From positions 62,001 through 126,000 of the forward strand of contig DAIDDL010000005.1 in NCBI GenBank assembly GCA_027309085.1: a DNA stretch of 64,000 bases, read 5' to 3'. Positions 2 to 6,895 of this stretch are shown here, piece after piece; the first letter of the stretch is position 1; each line of letters opens with the position of its first letter. The notes under the pieces were generated by a model, which saw nothing but the letters and a program-made list of their open reading frames with translations, was not told where the DNA came from and searched no databases. The position numbers and the translations under genes are program-made. Source of the DNA: Sulfobacillus sp. (lineage in GTDB: Bacteria > Bacillota > Sulfobacillia > Sulfobacillales > Sulfobacillaceae).

Positions 2-676
2 CTTTTGCACAAAGTCTGCGGGTCCCGCATCCAGTACCGGAAGCATTGCCCCGTATGCCATATGGACGTGGATGCGTCAGAAGTGGTTCGCGGCGCAGAG
101 TTGCCGGACGGGCGCTATGTCGTGGTGGAGAGTGAGGCGGCGGGGCCCGCTCCAGATCACACCATAGCGATTGTCAGTTTCCACGACCTTCCGGAGATTG
201 ATCCGGTGCTGTACCGCCAGGCCTACTGGGTCAAGCCGCTTGCGGGCGCCGAGAAAGCCTACCGATTGCTGGCTGAAACTCTCCAGGACACTCATCTGGT
301 GGCCTTAGCGACAATGGCTCTGCGGCAGAAGTTTTCTCTGGCGGTTGTCCGGTCAATGGAGCCTCATGTCCTGATGCTGCACAGTCTGTATTTTCCGGAG
401 AGCTTGCGTGAAGGCGGCAGGGACTTTGGCCAGAACCAGGCTGCGATATCGGACAAGGAACGGGATATGGCCAAGATGCTGGTCATGCAGATGCAGGAAC
501 CGTTTGTGGCCGCGAATTATCCTAACGAAGCGCGCCGGGAACTGTTGGAGCGGATTCAGGCTGCGTCTCCGCAGGGGGTGCATGCGCCAGATGAGGCGGT
601 GACTGGAGAGGTGCTGTCCTTGATGGAGCAGCTGCGGGCATCGGTGGAGCAGACAGCTCATCCCCGCCAGGCATGA
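2..676 (+). CDS. ku: Ku homodimeric DNA-end-binding protein (5' truncated by window edge)
   Basis: Bacterial Ku binds double-strand DNA ends as a homodimer and recruits the LigD-type ligase and polymerase in non-homologous end joining. The reading frame is already open at base 2 and begins LLHKVCGSRIQYRKHCPVC, which corresponds to roughly residue 35 of full-length bacterial Ku (family sequence near LHKKCGSRI). About 30-35 N-terminal residues therefore lie outside the window, and the TTG at base 5 is not the true start. The conserved CGSRI and CPVC segments and the ELPDGRYVVVE stretch that follows are typical of the Ku beta-barrel. The stop overlaps the next gene in an ATGA, so ligase translation is coupled to Ku. 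Confidence 0.93.
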   Translation, partial: LLHKVCGSRIQYRKHCPVCHMDVDASEVVRGAELPDGRYVVVESEAAGPAPDHTIAIVSFHDLPEIDPVLYRQAYWVKPLAGAEKAYRLLAETLQDTHLVALATMALRQKFSLAVVRSMEPHVLMLHSLYFPESLREGGRDFGQNQAAISDKERDMAKMLVMQMQEPFVAANYPNEARRELLERIQAASPQGVHAPDEAVTGEVLSLMEQLRASVEQTAHPRQA

Positions 677-1491
677 CCCGGGAGATGGGATTTGTCCAGC
701 CCATGCTGGCCATCACGGCTGAAGCGCCGTTTGATGACCCAGACTGGCAGTATGAAATCAAATGGGATGGGTACCGGTGCCAGATTCACTGGAACGGCTC
801 CTTGCACCTTTACTCGAGGCAGGGCCACGATATGGCAGGATGGTTTCCTGACCTCAAGGACACCGGCACTTTTCTGCGCTCGCCAGTGATCCTTGATGCT
901 GAGCTGGTTGCCTGGGAAGCGGGCCGGCCGTCGTTTTCCGCGTTGCAGAGACGGGCTGCAGCGCCCCATCGCCTGATAGTGTTTGATTGCCTCTACGCCC
1001 AGAAGCGGTGGCTTCTTCATGAACCCCTGAGGGCCCGTCTGGCTATTTTACATGAGGAGATAGAATCCAATGAGCGGGTCGTGTTGTCTGAGGGGGTGGC
1101 TGGGCAGGGAGTGCGTTTGCTTGAGGCCGTGAGGGAGAAGGGGCTCGAGGGGGTAATGGCCAAGCGCTTGCAAAGCCTGTATATTCCCGGTCAGCGCGTC
1201 AGGACTTGGCAGAAGTTCTTGGCCCTCACCAGACTTTGGGCGACAGTCTCCTATGTTTCCCGATCTGAGACTGGGGCGGGCTGGATGTGGTGGGTAGCAT
1301 CAGCAGAAGATCCTGGACATTTTTTGGGGCGACTGCCTGCACCGGGATCGTGGCAGCCGCCGGCGCCGCCGCCAGATGCCCGGGCACAGACCATGCATCT
1401 GGCTAAACCCATTCATGTGGAGGTGTCTTGCCGGGAGATCACGCCCAGCGGGAAGATGAGGCACGGGCGGATCCGCCGGTGGCAGATTTGA
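673..1491 (+). CDS. ATP-dependent DNA ligase, stand-alone LigD-type ligase domain
   Basis: This enzyme seals nicks in the NHEJ pathway using ATP. Motif I is EIKWDGYR (residues 28-35, with K30 as the adenylated lysine), motif III-like LIVFDCLY is near residue 107, and motif IV EGVMAKR is near 159. The C-terminus (HGRIRRWQI) resembles the end of the OB-fold domain. At 272 residues it is shorter than usual. Motif V reads RTWQKF where LigD ligases usually have W-x-K-h-K, so the second lysine seems to be missing. In most bacteria this domain is fused to the polymerase; here it is a separate polypeptide. Its start overlaps the ku stop (ATGA) and its stop overlaps the polymerase start (TGATG). Confidence 0.88.
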   Translation: MTREMGFVQPMLAITAEAPFDDPDWQYEIKWDGYRCQIHWNGSLHLYSRQGHDMAGWFPDLKDTGTFLRSPVILDAELVAWEAGRPSFSALQRRAAAPHRLIVFDCLYAQKRWLLHEPLRARLAILHEEIESNERVVLSEGVAGQGVRLLEAVREKGLEGVMAKRLQSLYIPGQRVRTWQKFLALTRLWATVSYVSRSETGAGWMWWVASAEDPGHFLGRLPAPGSWQPPAPPPDARAQTMHLAKPIHVEVSCREITPSGKMRHGRIRRWQI

Positions 1492-2336
1492 TGAGCATTC
1501 CTCATCCCGAGCGCGTTATCTTTCCCGGCGCCGGGATTACCCGCCAGCAGATGGTGGACTATTACAGGCAGATGGGACCGCTGATGCTCCCGTACTACCG
1601 GAACAGGGCCCTGACGCTGATTCGCTGGCCCCATGGACTGGGTGGGAGCCACTTTTATCAAAAGCACCGGGATTCGAGTTCGGCGGGCGCCAGTCCGATT
1701 ACCGTGGACAGCGTGGAGCAACTGGCGTGGTGGGCTGCTAGGGGGGCCATTGAATGGCATGTGCCGCTGGGCACGCTGTCCTCGCCAGCCCAGCATGACT
1801 GGGCTGTGATGGATATGGATCCTCCAGGCGAAGATTGGATGCAGGTGGTCGGGGCGGCGCGCATTATGGGCCATCTTTTGGATGTGCTCAGCATTCCTTG
1901 CGCCATGAAGACGTCTGGGCGCCGGGGACTGCACTTTTTTATCCGGATCGAGCCCGAGGATGCGGGCCGCGTGATCCTAGGACTCAAGGCAGTCGCTCAA
2001 GTGGCTGTTAAAACCTATCCGGAGGTGTTTACGGTGGAACGGCTGAAGGCAAAGAGGCAGGGCAAAATTTACCTGGATTACCTGCAAAACGGAGCCGGCC
2101 GCACGATGATAGGTATTTATTCGCTGCGCGCCTTGGAGACGGCTAGCGTCTCCTGCCCCGTCCGGTGGAGCGACCTGACATTTCCCCCTGATTACTGGAC
2201 AATGTCCCGGGTGTTGCTAAAGGTCAAAGAACAGGGCGACTGGTTTGCACAACTCCCCGCCGTTCCCTTGACGGCCCGGCTCGGGGAGAGGGGACTAGGG
2301 CCTGGCCCAATGCGGGCAGGCGGGCAGATTCCATGA
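1491..2336 (+). CDS. LigD-type NHEJ polymerase/primase domain, stand-alone
   Basis: An archaeo-eukaryotic primase superfamily polymerase that fills gaps at broken ends with a preference for ribonucleotides. The ORF opens further upstream, but ATG 1491 is chosen because it overlaps the ligase stop as TGATG and gives MSIPHPERVIFPG, the normal LigD-Pol N-terminus. Visible motifs are FYQKH (55-59), the metal-binding pair MDMDP (D108, D110), KTSGRRGLH (140-148) and the third catalytic acidic region LDYLQN (D196). The length of 281 residues fits the single domain. No phosphoesterase domain or gene is seen in the operon. The last codon overlaps the helicase start (ATGA). Confidence 0.92.
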   Translation: MSIPHPERVIFPGAGITRQQMVDYYRQMGPLMLPYYRNRALTLIRWPHGLGGSHFYQKHRDSSSAGASPITVDSVEQLAWWAARGAIEWHVPLGTLSSPAQHDWAVMDMDPPGEDWMQVVGAARIMGHLLDVLSIPCAMKTSGRRGLHFFIRIEPEDAGRVILGLKAVAQVAVKTYPEVFTVERLKAKRQGKIYLDYLQNGAGRTMIGIYSLRALETASVSCPVRWSDLTFPPDYWTMSRVLLKVKEQGDWFAQLPAVPLTARLGERGLGPGPMRAGGQIP

Positions 2337-3964
2337 GGAATGCAGCCCCCCCGACACTAGAACACCTGGTGCATCATCTGGTGGCGTGGCCACAGCTCGC
2401 ACCTTTTGTGGACCGCGGACTCAATCTGCACGCCTACCAAATTGACAGTGTGCTGACGGTTGTCAACCAGCTGGGTGGCCGCGCCATTCTGGCTGATGAG
2501 GTGGGGTTGGGGAAAACCATTGAGACCGGCCTCATTATCTCCGAGCTTAGAGCGCGGCACGCCATTGACCAAGTCTTGGTGCTGGTGCCCGCAGGTCTCA
2601 TTACGCAGTGGATTCAGGAACTGAAGGACAAATTTGGCTGGACGGCCCTTCATGATGCGCATGATGACGGGTGGCTGTGGGTTCTGTCCATCGACAGTGC
2701 GAAGAGGCCCCCACTATATCAACAGCTGCAGTATGTGCCGTGGGACCTGGTCATCGTGGACGAAGCGCATCATTTAAAAAACACAAGAACCCTCAACTAC
2801 CAGCTGGTCGAGGGCCTCACCTCGAAATTCATGGTGCTGCTGACAGCTACGCCGATGCAGAATGAACTGACCGAGCTCTATAATCTGGTCAACCTTGTCA
2901 AGCCTGGCCAGTTTGGCAGTTATCTGCGTTTTTACCGCCAGTTCATACTCGACAAGCGCACGCCTAAAAATGCCCGGGCCCTGCGCCAGCTGCTGGCACA
3001 GGTGATGGTACGCAACCAGCGCCAGCAGGTCGGACTGGACCTGCCGCCCCGGGAAGTCACCCTGTGGCCGATTGAGCTGACCACTGAAGAGCGCCATCTG
3101 TACGACACCATCACCACGGCCCTGAAGAGAGAATACCGCCAGCGGTTGCAAGGCAGCCAGACTGTGCTGCCGCTCATCACCTTGCAGCGCGAGCTGTGCT
3201 CATCTCCCCAGGCGCTGATTCCCACCTTGGAATCCGCGGAATGGTTGGGAGAACTGCAGCACGATCTGGTCACTCTGGCGCAGTCGATCACCATGACGGC
3301 CAAGATGAGGGCTGTCGTGGATCTGATTCAGGCCCTCGGGGGCCAGGTGCTGGTATTTACCGAGTACCGCGCCAGCCAAATGGCGCTGGTGCGCGCTCTG
3401 CAGGATGCCGGCGTCGCAGCCGAACCCTTTCACGGAGGCCTCCGGCGAAGAGAGCGGGACCGCCTGATCGAGTGGTTTGCCTCCCCGGACCACGTTCTGG
3501 TGTCAACGGAAGCTGGCGGACAGGGACTGAATCTTCAATTCTGCCACCAGTTGATTAACTTTGACTTGCCGTGGAATCCCATGCGGATTGAGCAGCGCAT
3601 CGGGCGCATCCACCGCATTGGGCAGAGCCACCCCGTGGAAATTTACAATCTCTTTACGGTGGAAACCATTGAAGAGCACATCCTCCACCTTCTCCATGAA
3701 AAGATTGACTTGTTCCGCCATGTTGTCGGGGAGCTCGATGTGATCCTCCGTCATATGGAACGGCGCGGAAGTCTGGAAAAGCGTCTGCTGGACATCTTTT
3801 TCTGGGAGGATGACCGTCAGCAGATCGAATCCCGTCTGGACGCTCTAGGCCAGGAATTTATCGCAGTGCGCCGCAGGCTGTCATGGCCTGAGCCGGTGCA
3901 GCCCGGTGCGCTGTCTGCTTTGCCCTCTCACAGTAGCCAAACAACACGGGAATCAGTACACTAA
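2333..3964 (+). CDS. SNF2/RapA-family DEAH-box helicase in the NHEJ operon
   Basis: An ATP-driven double-stranded DNA translocase of superfamily 2. The N-terminal RecA-like lobe has Walker A DEVGLGKT (55-62), DEAH (143-146) and TATPMQN (171-177). The C-terminal lobe has VFTEYR (341-346), STEAGGQGLN (391-400) and motif VI QRIGRIHRIGQ (421-431), the SNF2 signature. The 543 residues hold the two lobes plus a short basic tail, with none of the extra domains of full-size RapA. Its start overlaps the polymerase stop, so it belongs to the Ku-ligase-polymerase transcription unit. The context suggests chromatin or protein clearance, or remodelling at DNA ends; that role is inference. Confidence 0.9.
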   Translation: MRNAAPPTLEHLVHHLVAWPQLAPFVDRGLNLHAYQIDSVLTVVNQLGGRAILADEVGLGKTIETGLIISELRARHAIDQVLVLVPAGLITQWIQELKDKFGWTALHDAHDDGWLWVLSIDSAKRPPLYQQLQYVPWDLVIVDEAHHLKNTRTLNYQLVEGLTSKFMVLLTATPMQNELTELYNLVNLVKPGQFGSYLRFYRQFILDKRTPKNARALRQLLAQVMVRNQRQQVGLDLPPREVTLWPIELTTEERHLYDTITTALKREYRQRLQGSQTVLPLITLQRELCSSPQALIPTLESAEWLGELQHDLVTLAQSITMTAKMRAVVDLIQALGGQVLVFTEYRASQMALVRALQDAGVAAEPFHGGLRRRERDRLIEWFASPDHVLVSTEAGGQGLNLQFCHQLINFDLPWNPMRIEQRIGRIHRIGQSHPVEIYNLFTVETIEEHILHLLHEKIDLFRHVVGELDVILRHMERRGSLEKRLLDIFFWEDDRQQIESRLDALGQEFIAVRRRLSWPEPVQPGALSALPSHSSQTTRESVH

Positions 3965-4121
3965 GAAGAAATGCCGCATGCGGGGCCATGGTCGGCTGAA
4001 TCGCCACGGTTAGCTGCGGCGGACATTAGCCGTGGCTCTGCATGGCAGCCGGACACCCCGAAAAGGGAGAAATTCCGGAGAGCTGCGCGGGCCGACTTTG
4101 ACGGAGAGGAAGGTGGGCCAC

Positions 4122-4814
4122 ATGGGCTTTTTGAACGAGCGGGATCGCCAGACTCTGACGGAAATGTTTCGGGACCTGAAGTTTCCTGTGCATTTGGAAC
4201 TGTTCGTCGACCCAGATCAGGAGTGGAGCCAGCATACCCGCGGAATACTGGCCGAAGTGGTGGCCTTGATGCCAGACTTTCTCCATTTGGAAACATACCA
4301 CTTCGAAAAGAATCGACTGCTAGCGGCGCTTTATGGGGTCACGCAGGTGCCCTGCCTAATTTTGCGGGATAAGAATGAGGATGACAGCGGCATTCGCATT
4401 CTGGGCATCCCGTCCGGGTATGAGTTTGCCGTACTGGTCGAGGATATTTTGGATGTGTCAACCGGACGGAACAGGCTGAGGGAAAAGTCACTGAATTACA
4501 TTCGCAATCTTGAGCATGACATTGTCATGCAGGTGTTCGTCACCCCGACGTGCCCGCATTGTCCCCGGGCCGTGCGCCTGGCTCACCAGATGGCTCTGGC
4601 CAACCCGGCGCGGGTTCGCGGGGAGTCGATCGACGCCAATACCTTTATCGAGTGGGCAGACCAAGAGGGGGTCTATTCCGTCCCTAAGACGGTGCTGACA
4701 GCTAAAGATCCGTTGAAGACGGTGACCTTCGAAGGAGCGGTCAGCGAAGAGTACATTATCCGGCAGATTAAACTGCTGTTGGATGATCCTGTGCAACCTG
4801 AGTTAGGGAGTTGA
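4122..4814 (+). CDS. Protein disulfide oxidoreductase (two thioredoxin folds, PDO/glutaredoxin-like)
   Basis: The protein has 230 residues in two thioredoxin-like halves, the architecture of PDO from archaea, Aquifex and Thermus-type thermophiles, where it forms or shuffles cytosolic disulfides. The C-terminal half has the active site CPHC (144-147). The N-terminal half has the cis-proline region TQVPC (75-79) but no CxxC where the active site should be (LELFVDPDQEW), so only one half is redox-active. An upstream in-frame ATG at 4032 exists, but ATG 4122 has a good GGAGAGGAAGG ribosome site and gives the family-typical start MGFLNERDRQ. It follows the NHEJ operon by about 160 bases and precedes panC. 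Confidence 0.8.
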   Translation: MGFLNERDRQTLTEMFRDLKFPVHLELFVDPDQEWSQHTRGILAEVVALMPDFLHLETYHFEKNRLLAALYGVTQVPCLILRDKNEDDSGIRILGIPSGYEFAVLVEDILDVSTGRNRLREKSLNYIRNLEHDIVMQVFVTPTCPHCPRAVRLAHQMALANPARVRGESIDANTFIEWADQEGVYSVPKTVLTAKDPLKTVTFEGAVSEEYIIRQIKLLLDDPVQPELGS

Positions 4815-4819
4815 CGTTT

Positions 4820-5677
4820 TTGCTGAATAGAACACGTATTGAGAGTGTCGCGGATATGGTGGAGTTTCGGAAGAATGGGGTGCGCCAGCCTGCCCGGGTG
4901 GCGCTCGTCCCCACCATGGGCGCCCTTCATGAAGGACATTTGGCTTTGGTTAAGGCCGCCTACGGCATAGCCCAGCATGTGGTTGTCAGCATCTTTGTCA
5001 ACCCCATGCAGTTCGGCCCTCAAGAGGACTACTCCCGGTATCCCCGCGTCGTGGACCATGATATAGCCCTCCTGTCATCTTTTCCCCATACGGTCGTGTT
5101 TACTCCGTCCGCAGAGGATATGTATCCCGAGGGTCCCAGTTGGACCGTCATTTCTGTTCCCGGTATGACCGGCACCCTGTGCGGGCTCAAGCGTCCGGGT
5201 CACTTTGACGGCGTCTGCACCGTCGTGGCCAAGCTGTTCAATATTGTCCGTCCGGATTTCGCCCTATTTGGGCAGAAAGATGGACAGCAGCTGGCTGTTG
5301 TGCGGCGGATGGCGGAGGATTTGAATTTTCCTGTCGAGATTGTTGGAGTGCCAACCGTGAGAGAACCATCCGGACTGGCTCTGTCCTCACGCAACCGCTA
5401 TCTTGAACCGCACGAGAGAGTCCAGGCGGCTTCCCTCTACCGCGCTCTGAGCGCTGGGCGGGAACGGTTCGGGAAGGGTGAGCGCAGCAGGCAGCAGATT
5501 ACGCAGGCTGTCTTTGACGTGCTGAGGGCGGCAGGCATTGAAGCGGAGTATGTCGCCTTGGTCGACAGCCGCACATTGGAACCTTTGGAACAAGTGGGCC
5601 GCCAGCCAGCGATGCTGGCCTTGGCAGCCCAAATTGGCGCAGCCCGGCTGATCGACAACGTGATTCTCACCCCCTAA
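4820..5677 (+). CDS. panC: Pantothenate synthetase
   Basis: Condenses pantoate and beta-alanine with ATP to make pantothenate, the coenzyme A precursor. The nucleotide-binding PTMGALHEGH is near residues 31-40, and FVNPMQFGP, FGQKDGQQL and LALSSRNRYL are all canonical. The length matches the family at about 285 residues. Two TTG starts are possible. At 4820 the AGGGAG motif ending at 4810 has a 9-base spacer, whereas at 4811 it would directly abut the start codon, so 4820 is preferred. The gene sits directly behind the disulfide oxidoreductase. No panB or panD is visible in the window. Confidence 0.95.
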   Translation: MLNRTRIESVADMVEFRKNGVRQPARVALVPTMGALHEGHLALVKAAYGIAQHVVVSIFVNPMQFGPQEDYSRYPRVVDHDIALLSSFPHTVVFTPSAEDMYPEGPSWTVISVPGMTGTLCGLKRPGHFDGVCTVVAKLFNIVRPDFALFGQKDGQQLAVVRRMAEDLNFPVEIVGVPTVREPSGLALSSRNRYLEPHERVQAASLYRALSAGRERFGKGERSRQQITQAVFDVLRAAGIEAEYVALVDSRTLEPLEQVGRQPAMLALAAQIGAARLIDNVILTP

Positions 5678-5750: not shown

Positions 5751-6341
5751 ATGGTAAACATTGTTTGGCTGGTCCTCATTGTCGGAGGTTTGGTTGTGAG
5801 TGCTCTTCACCACTCCATGCTGCCCGTCACGCAGGCCATCGTGACGGGCAGTGAAAAGGCGGTGGAGGTGGCTTTTGGGTTTATCGGGATTATGGCCCTG
5901 TGGCTGGGGATGGCGAAAATTGCTGAAGAATCAGGCCTGATGCGTGCTTTTTCCCGGCTCTTGGCCCCTTTTGTCTCCCGGCTTTTCCCGGGAATTCCGA
6001 AGGACCATCCGGCTATGGGCAGCATGCTGATGAATATGGCGGCCAATATTTTGGGAATGGGGGGGGCGGCGACGCCCTTTGGGCTCAAGGCTATGGAGCA
6101 ATTGCAGGAACTGAATCCCGTGAAAGATGTCGCCTCAGCCAACATGATTACCTTCATGGCCATCAATACCGCCTCCATCAACTTGATTCCGGCGACAGTT
6201 ATTGCGCTGCGGGTGGCGGCAGGGTCGCGCAATCCCACGGAGATTGTCGGGCCGACAATCTTTGCTACGAGCGTAGCCTCGGTTGTGGCGATATCGGCTG
6301 AGAGGCTGTTCCGTCACTTTCAGAACCGGAGCAAATCGTGA
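5751..6341 (+). CDS. spmA: Spore maturation protein A (nucleoside-recognition/Gate domain)
   Basis: A polytopic membrane protein of about 196 residues in the Gate/nucleoside-recognition family, needed in B. subtilis together with SpmB for dehydration of the spore core. Recognisable features are the hydrophobic N-terminus MVNIVWLVLIVGG, the ALWLGMAKIAEESG segment, the NMAANILGMGGAATPFGLKAM block and INTASINLIPATVIALR. ATG 5751 is chosen over upstream starts because of the GGGGGGGAAG ribosome site just before it. Its partner spmB is not downstream in the same direction but converges on it, with only 20 bases between the stop codons. Confidence 0.9.
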   Translation: MVNIVWLVLIVGGLVVSALHHSMLPVTQAIVTGSEKAVEVAFGFIGIMALWLGMAKIAEESGLMRAFSRLLAPFVSRLFPGIPKDHPAMGSMLMNMAANILGMGGAATPFGLKAMEQLQELNPVKDVASANMITFMAINTASINLIPATVIALRVAAGSRNPTEIVGPTIFATSVASVVAISAERLFRHFQNRSKS

Positions 6342-6361: not shown

Positions 6362-6895
6362 TCAGTGGAACAGCTGGTGGCAAATGAACACGGCCGCGAT
6401 AAACCCTGCGGCATCTCCAATCAGGGCGACAATGAGCGCATACCGGATCTTTTTAATCGCCACGGATCCGAAATACAGAGTGACAACATAAAACGTCGTG
6501 TCGGTGCTTCCCTGGACCGTTGAGGCGAGGCGGCCTACGAAAGAGTCGGGACCGTAGTGGTGCAGCAGTCCGGTGGTAATGCCTAGGGCGGCACCGCCGG
6601 ACAGCGGCCTCACCAGCAATAGGGGGACGACGGGGGCTGGAACACCCAAGTAGTCCAGCGGCTTGGATAAAAAGTGGATGACACTGTCTAGAGCTCCCGA
6701 TGACTCGAAGATATTCAGCGCAACCAGTATGCCTACCAAAAAAGGAATCATCCGCACGGCCATCCGGAAGCCTTCCTCCGCCCCCTCCACGAATGTCTCG
6801 TAGACTTTTACCCCTTTGAGCCAGCCGTATAAGGGAATGAAGCCAATTAGAAATGGAATGGCCCATTCCGAGATTGTCTCGATTAATGCAATCAT
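6362..6895 (-). CDS. spmB: Spore maturation protein B (nucleoside-recognition/Gate domain)
   Basis: A 177-residue membrane protein homologous to SpmB; in B. subtilis it acts with SpmA in spore-core dehydration. Family features are the MIALIETISEWAIPFLIGF start, EGAEEGFRMAVRMIPFLVG, VRPLSGGAALG and the GSTDTTFYVVTLYFGSV segment. A perfect AGGAGG lies 8 bases upstream of the ATG (6904-6909 on the plus strand). The orientation is unusual: it is read toward spmA rather than following it in an operon, so the two cannot share a promoter here. Confidence 0.9.
   Translation of the reverse strand: MIALIETISEWAIPFLIGFIPLYGWLKGVKVYETFVEGAEEGFRMAVRMIPFLVGILVALNIFESSGALDSVIHFLSKPLDYLGVPAPVVPLLLVRPLSGGAALGITTGLLHHYGPDSFVGRLASTVQGSTDTTFYVVTLYFGSVAIKKIRYALIVALIGDAAGFIAAVFICHQLFH

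Follow-up and report, generated by a model that had tools for sequence, protein, structure and literature searches.

The first genes of the window (the whole stretch of 64,000 nucleotides analysed here, within contig C128 of a Sulfobacillus-like genome of 4.49 Mb in 172 contigs, 99% complete) are probably an ordinary split NHEJ cassette lying in a sporulation gene cluster, beside an independent translocase of the YqhH type. The SNF2 protein is probably a neighbour of the repair genes and not their dedicated partner, because SNF2 is kept intact in lineages whose repair genes are gone or sit elsewhere. Positions 2 to 3964 hold four separate genes, the 3' part of ku followed by ligase, polymerase and SNF2, listed here with their junctions and downstream neighbours:

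2..676, forward strand: ku, 3' part (TIGR02772, E 2.6e-49; PF02735); the window edge removes the gene start
673..676, forward strand: ATGA overlap of ku and ligase, read directly from the sequence
673..1491, forward strand: stand-alone ATP-dependent NHEJ ligase, 272 aa (PF01068; adenylation and OB domains)
1489..1493, forward strand: TGATG overlap of ligase and polymerase, read directly from the sequence
1491..2336, forward strand: stand-alone NHEJ primase-polymerase, 281 aa (PF21686, E 3.5e-61), its own polypeptide
2333..2336, forward strand: ATGA overlap of polymerase and SNF2, read directly from the sequence
2333..3964, forward strand: SNF2-family DNA translocase, YqhH/HepA type, 543 aa (PF00176 and PF00271)
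4122..4814, forward strand: thioredoxin-fold protein (PF13192), downstream neighbour; the listed ORF is 4032-4814, with 4122 as chosen start
4811..5677, forward strand: panC (PF02569), downstream neighbour in the conserved cluster
5751..6341, forward strand: Gate-domain membrane protein (PF07670), SpmA-like, named from gene order
6362..6895, reverse strand: Gate-domain membrane protein (PF07670), SpmB-like, named from gene order

The full ku gene begins upstream of the window (L002:9907-10677, 256 aa, GTG start). Its product passes the TIGR02772 and PF02735 cut-offs, the former being passed even by the window-truncated protein. The three overlaps bear out the original prediction that ku, ligase, polymerase and SNF2 are separate, coupled genes; judging from the sequence, the four are probably co-transcribed. 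Across locus records of the family, the exact four-base overlap was found at 13 of 31 Ku/ligase and 13 of 29 polymerase/SNF2 junctions, and nearly all of the remaining gaps were within about 20 bases. The predicted absence of a phosphoesterase extends beyond the window: PF13298 (LigD phosphoesterase) had no match anywhere in the 99% complete assembly.

The NHEJ parts look functional, and end joining is predicted from homology, as are the functions given here for all four proteins. The ligase, a polypeptide of its own with neither a phosphoesterase nor a polymerase domain, has adenylation motifs KWDG, EG..AK and W.K and a late R263 that were invariant in 29 relatives. The best PDB match of its AlphaFold2 model (pLDDT 93.7) was the ligase domain of M. 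tuberculosis LigD (1vs0), over both the adenylation and OB domains. The polymerase best matched the Methanocella NHEJ polymerase (5dmu), with the catalytic DxD and LDYLxN motifs aligned; about 14 residues that follow FYQKH in 5dmu are missing from the window protein. By these similarities, a Ku homodimer would bind DNA ends, the stand-alone primase-polymerase would fill gaps and the stand-alone ligase would seal.

With a Ku beta-barrel homolog, and with ligase and polymerase as polypeptides of their own, the set belongs to the split (archaeo-prokaryotic) NHEJ operons. In the Methanocella paludicola type, as in many Bacillota, Ku, ligase and polymerase are likewise separate products of adjacent genes in one operon, and the window set shares its intact catalytic motifs and has 5dmu as nearest solved polymerase. 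In contrast to that type, the window genome has no phosphoesterase, its polymerase is missing the stretch that 5dmu has after FYQKH and an SNF2 gene follows; it does not carry the Methanocella set with phosphoesterase. A phosphoesterase (LigD_N) is present in Methanocella NHEJ and absent in Bacillus, so it is not required for the wider NHEJ kind. The YkoV (Ku) and YkoU (LigD) proteins of B. subtilis, also an endospore former, similarly combine Ku, ligase and polymerase without a phosphoesterase domain; however, YkoU fuses the ligase and polymerase that are separate in the window, and the B. subtilis yqhH gene lies at the gcvT locus, away from ku (as seen in the Bacillus-like genome L218).

Separate ligase and polymerase proteins had been described as mainly archaeal, which does not agree with their distribution in the phylum, where the split state is ordinary and a stand-alone polymerase is no archaeal hallmark. 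We sampled 299 genomes of the phylum, and among the polymerase frames listed 135 of 150 were shorter than 470 aa and 14 were at least 560 aa long, open-frame length serving as a proxy for an unfused polymerase that was checked directly in a subset. Separate NHEJ proteins from one operon have already been described in the literature. Nor did the polymerase pair with archaeal split versions, a grouping suggested as a check: in a tree of weak resolution, the Sulfobacillales copies formed their own clade and Methanocella branched apart, leaving an archaeal origin of the split polymerase unsupported. The Sulfobacillales clade (L003, L105-L109, L178-L180) has a long stem, and Ku PF02735 scores in Sulfobacillales are below those of most other families in the class, which together suggest fast evolution of NHEJ proteins in this order.

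We also observed a 635-aa open frame joining Ku and polymerase in one genome (G395, L186:5447-7354), a possible natural fusion or an assembly error; in the sister genome G394 (L185:5089-7403) the two are separate, with an ATGA overlap. In the stretches L185-L189 (f153 and f154), Ku, polymerase and SNF2 follow directly on one another, and no NHEJ ligase was found between these genes or elsewhere in the same stretches.

The SNF2 protein consists of a motor core (SNF2 and Helicase_C) without long extensions, in which it resembles YqhH/HepA. It had been predicted as a SNF2/RapA-type helicase; the SNF2 motor is there, but the N- and C-terminal extensions of RapA are absent. Its AlphaFold2 model (pLDDT 87.3) had E. 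coli RapA (8spg) as best Foldseek match; the RapA profile aligned over the motor part alone, and the score against full-length RapA (NF003426, including the RNAP-binding N-terminal region) was 191 bits, under the cut-off of 576. The YqhH/HepA proteins of Bacilli have a motor core of about 540-560 aa, with 42-44% identity to the window protein over the core. Bacillus yqhH, recognised by its gcvT-yqhH-yqhG-tasA locus, sits at gcvT-yqhH-yqhG, whereas the window SNF2 belongs to a separate clade and lies at the ytfJ locus. YqhH/HepA is described as an RNA-polymerase-interacting Swi2/Snf2 enzyme (PMC7385302), and a yqhH knockout in B. thuringiensis is UV-sensitive (PMC10054049). The window protein probably acts as a double-stranded DNA translocase on general duty, its putative substrate being stalled RNA polymerase or other proteins that it would remove from DNA. 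A defence helicase (DISARM DrmD, BrxH of BREX, ZorD of Zorya, or DpdE) was rejected: similarity, including that of the PADLOC matches, was confined to the motor core, and scores fell far below curated cut-offs, with 254 bits against 610 for DrmD.

The ku-lig-pol-SNF2 arrangement is old and widespread, with a gene order shared across the class. We examined 154 class genomes in three scans of the same set, joined by script, counting as SNF2 orthologs proteins with at least 47% identity. Ku was present in 125 genomes, an SNF2 ortholog in 66 and both in 57, the genome counts not being independent of each other. The suggested search for this adjacency in other genomes showed that 47 of the 57 genomes with both carry SNF2 on the same strand as Ku and at most 6 kb further downstream, ruling out an arrangement limited to one strain. 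The ten exceptions comprise two genomes with contig breaks inside the locus (G023 and G418), one with short contigs (G370) and seven from f144. Outside the class, SNF2 homologs had about 47% identity or less, and none was near Ku among the matches listed, compared by eye.

Gene maps place the four genes in the order scpA-scpB-(DUF2953-like gene)-ytfJ-ku-lig-pol-SNF2, often with trx-panC next and then spmA-spmB-ridA-rluB, and with spoVA genes upstream of the scpA-scpB-ytfJ-ku cluster. The thioredoxin-fold gene lies between SNF2 and panC across much of the family. The full order ytfJ-ku-lig-pol-SNF2 extends from Sulfobacillaceae as far as the families f2, f3, f138 and f151. The constant neighbour at the SNF2 locus is the spore gene ytfJ, whose product is the GerW/YtfJ sporulation protein, confirmed by TIGR02874. 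Throughout this class of spore formers, the NHEJ genes thus form part of a long-standing cluster of sporulation genes.

This location, adjoining ytfJ and close to spoVA and spmAB, lends itself to another reading, which we consider rather unlikely: a spore-DNA maintenance unit, in which NHEJ and SNF2 would be co-expressed in the forespore and have simultaneous, partly independent activities. An equally doubtful division of roles would have SNF2 taking bound proteins or stalled polymerase off the DNA while NHEJ mends breaks. We give the same low probability to ytfJ-ku-lig-pol-SNF2 being a spore-specific repair unit, with SNF2 stripping bound proteins from the DNA and thereby opening dormant or germinating spore chromosomes to NHEJ. 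Consistent with such readings, ytfJ is listed among sigma-F controlled genes (PMC3416734), and B. subtilis ykoVU (Ku, LigD) is under sigma-G/SpoVT control, expressed in the forespore and protective of spores (PMC3656841); the UV sensitivity of the yqhH knockout points the same way. On the favoured reading too, the window NHEJ genes may, by analogy with ykoVU, be used in spores or during germination. However, the upstream regions of ytfJ gave no sigma-F or sigma-G consensus within 350 bases (33 regions), and a sigma-F/G promoter at this site was rejected. Moreover, position alone is no proof of sporulation control, because the housekeeping genes scpAB, trpS, lysA and panC share the neighbourhood. 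The facts reported in PMC3656841, PMC7385302 and PMC10054049 lend plausibility to a shared spore setting, which is not the same as evidence of one pathway. Were the spore unit real, it would bring a remodelling step, or a remodeller-like partner, not described for bacterial NHEJ; we found no paper describing a bacterial link between NHEJ and SNF2 in the open-access literature. Ku-less lineages offer natural controls for a joint role of NHEJ and SNF2 in spores.

An ordinary NHEJ cassette beside an independent translocase agrees better with how the two units come apart. Six genomes with no ku or pol match (G009, G010, G371, G380, G396 and G398) keep an SNF2 ortholog beside ytfJ, and SNF2 lies beside ytfJ without intervening ku-lig-pol in 14 genomes of g7, f142, f144 and f154. 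In f144 (e.g., L192 and L194) SNF2 comes after ytfJ, and the three repair genes sit on other contigs (e.g., L193). Many class genomes are draft assemblies, in which the absence of ku may be an assembly gap; since the ytfJ-SNF2 stretches are contiguous, ku is missing at that site. The reverse pattern, ytfJ-ku-lig and mostly also pol without SNF2, is found in many genomes of other families (L120-L147 and L233-L237). Because both types of gene map occur, each unit, ku-lig-pol and SNF2, can persist without the other.

When 78 SNF2 proteins were placed in a quick maximum-likelihood tree, the 50 locus copies all formed one clade (SH-aLRT 100), 35 of them Ku-adjacent and 15 ytfJ-only, counting L221 among the latter by default because it is a short contig without ytfJ. 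The Ku-adjacent label needs four changes on the tree, at least three of them forced by well-supported branches; in this quick tree, whose branches are long, Bacillus YqhH stands apart from the clade, and other homologs lie between the two. At least 3-4 lineages have lost or relocated ku-lig-pol and still have SNF2 beside ytfJ. G009 and G010 form one such Ku-less pair, and selection on their SNF2 is strongly purifying, with a dN/dS of 0.087 (ytfJ 0.085, scpB 0.095). One weak tblastn match (E 0.002, 34% over 61 aa) raised the possibility of decayed ku, lig or pol between ytfJ and SNF2 in these two genomes; profile searches of the spacers, which gave nothing above shuffled sequence, did not bear it out. 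Compared with S. thermotolerans Kr1, the nearest named genome found, identity was 86% for ytfJ, 83% for SNF2, 72% for Ku, 63% for the polymerase and 62% for the ligase. Since the full order is present in several distant families, the sequences favour a loss of ku-lig-pol over an insertion between ytfJ and SNF2.

The original prediction had made the SNF2 protein a dedicated NHEJ remodeller, clearing or remodelling ends for Ku, polymerase and ligase. Most genomes with Ku and SNF2 retain their adjacency, and in much of the family the polymerase/SNF2 junctions overlap or nearly overlap; such an association, not seen outside the class among the matches listed, can reflect a functional link. However, SNF2 outlasts the repair genes in several lineages and is conserved in relatives lacking ku (e.g., G009 and G010, where it is under selection), a pattern the prediction itself had set against this role, and Ku and SNF2 are not significantly associated (57 class genomes with both, 68 with Ku but no SNF2, 9 with SNF2 only, 20 with neither; Fisher p 0.21, phylogeny ignored), all of which makes a dedicated remodeller very improbable. 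The reading of an independent translocase keeps the NHEJ cassette apart from the conserved SNF2 translocase of YqhH type, which has its own constraint; from adjacency alone, these would look like a single fact.

Among the relocated NHEJ genes of f144, the ligase match in one genome (G375, L193:4472-7180) is opposite in strand to ku and pol. Several class genomes (L198-L201, L214, L227) also carry SNF2 paralogues of about 40-45% identity, which form a different, second clade and were left out of the ortholog counts; in L214, two SNF2 matches lie in tandem.
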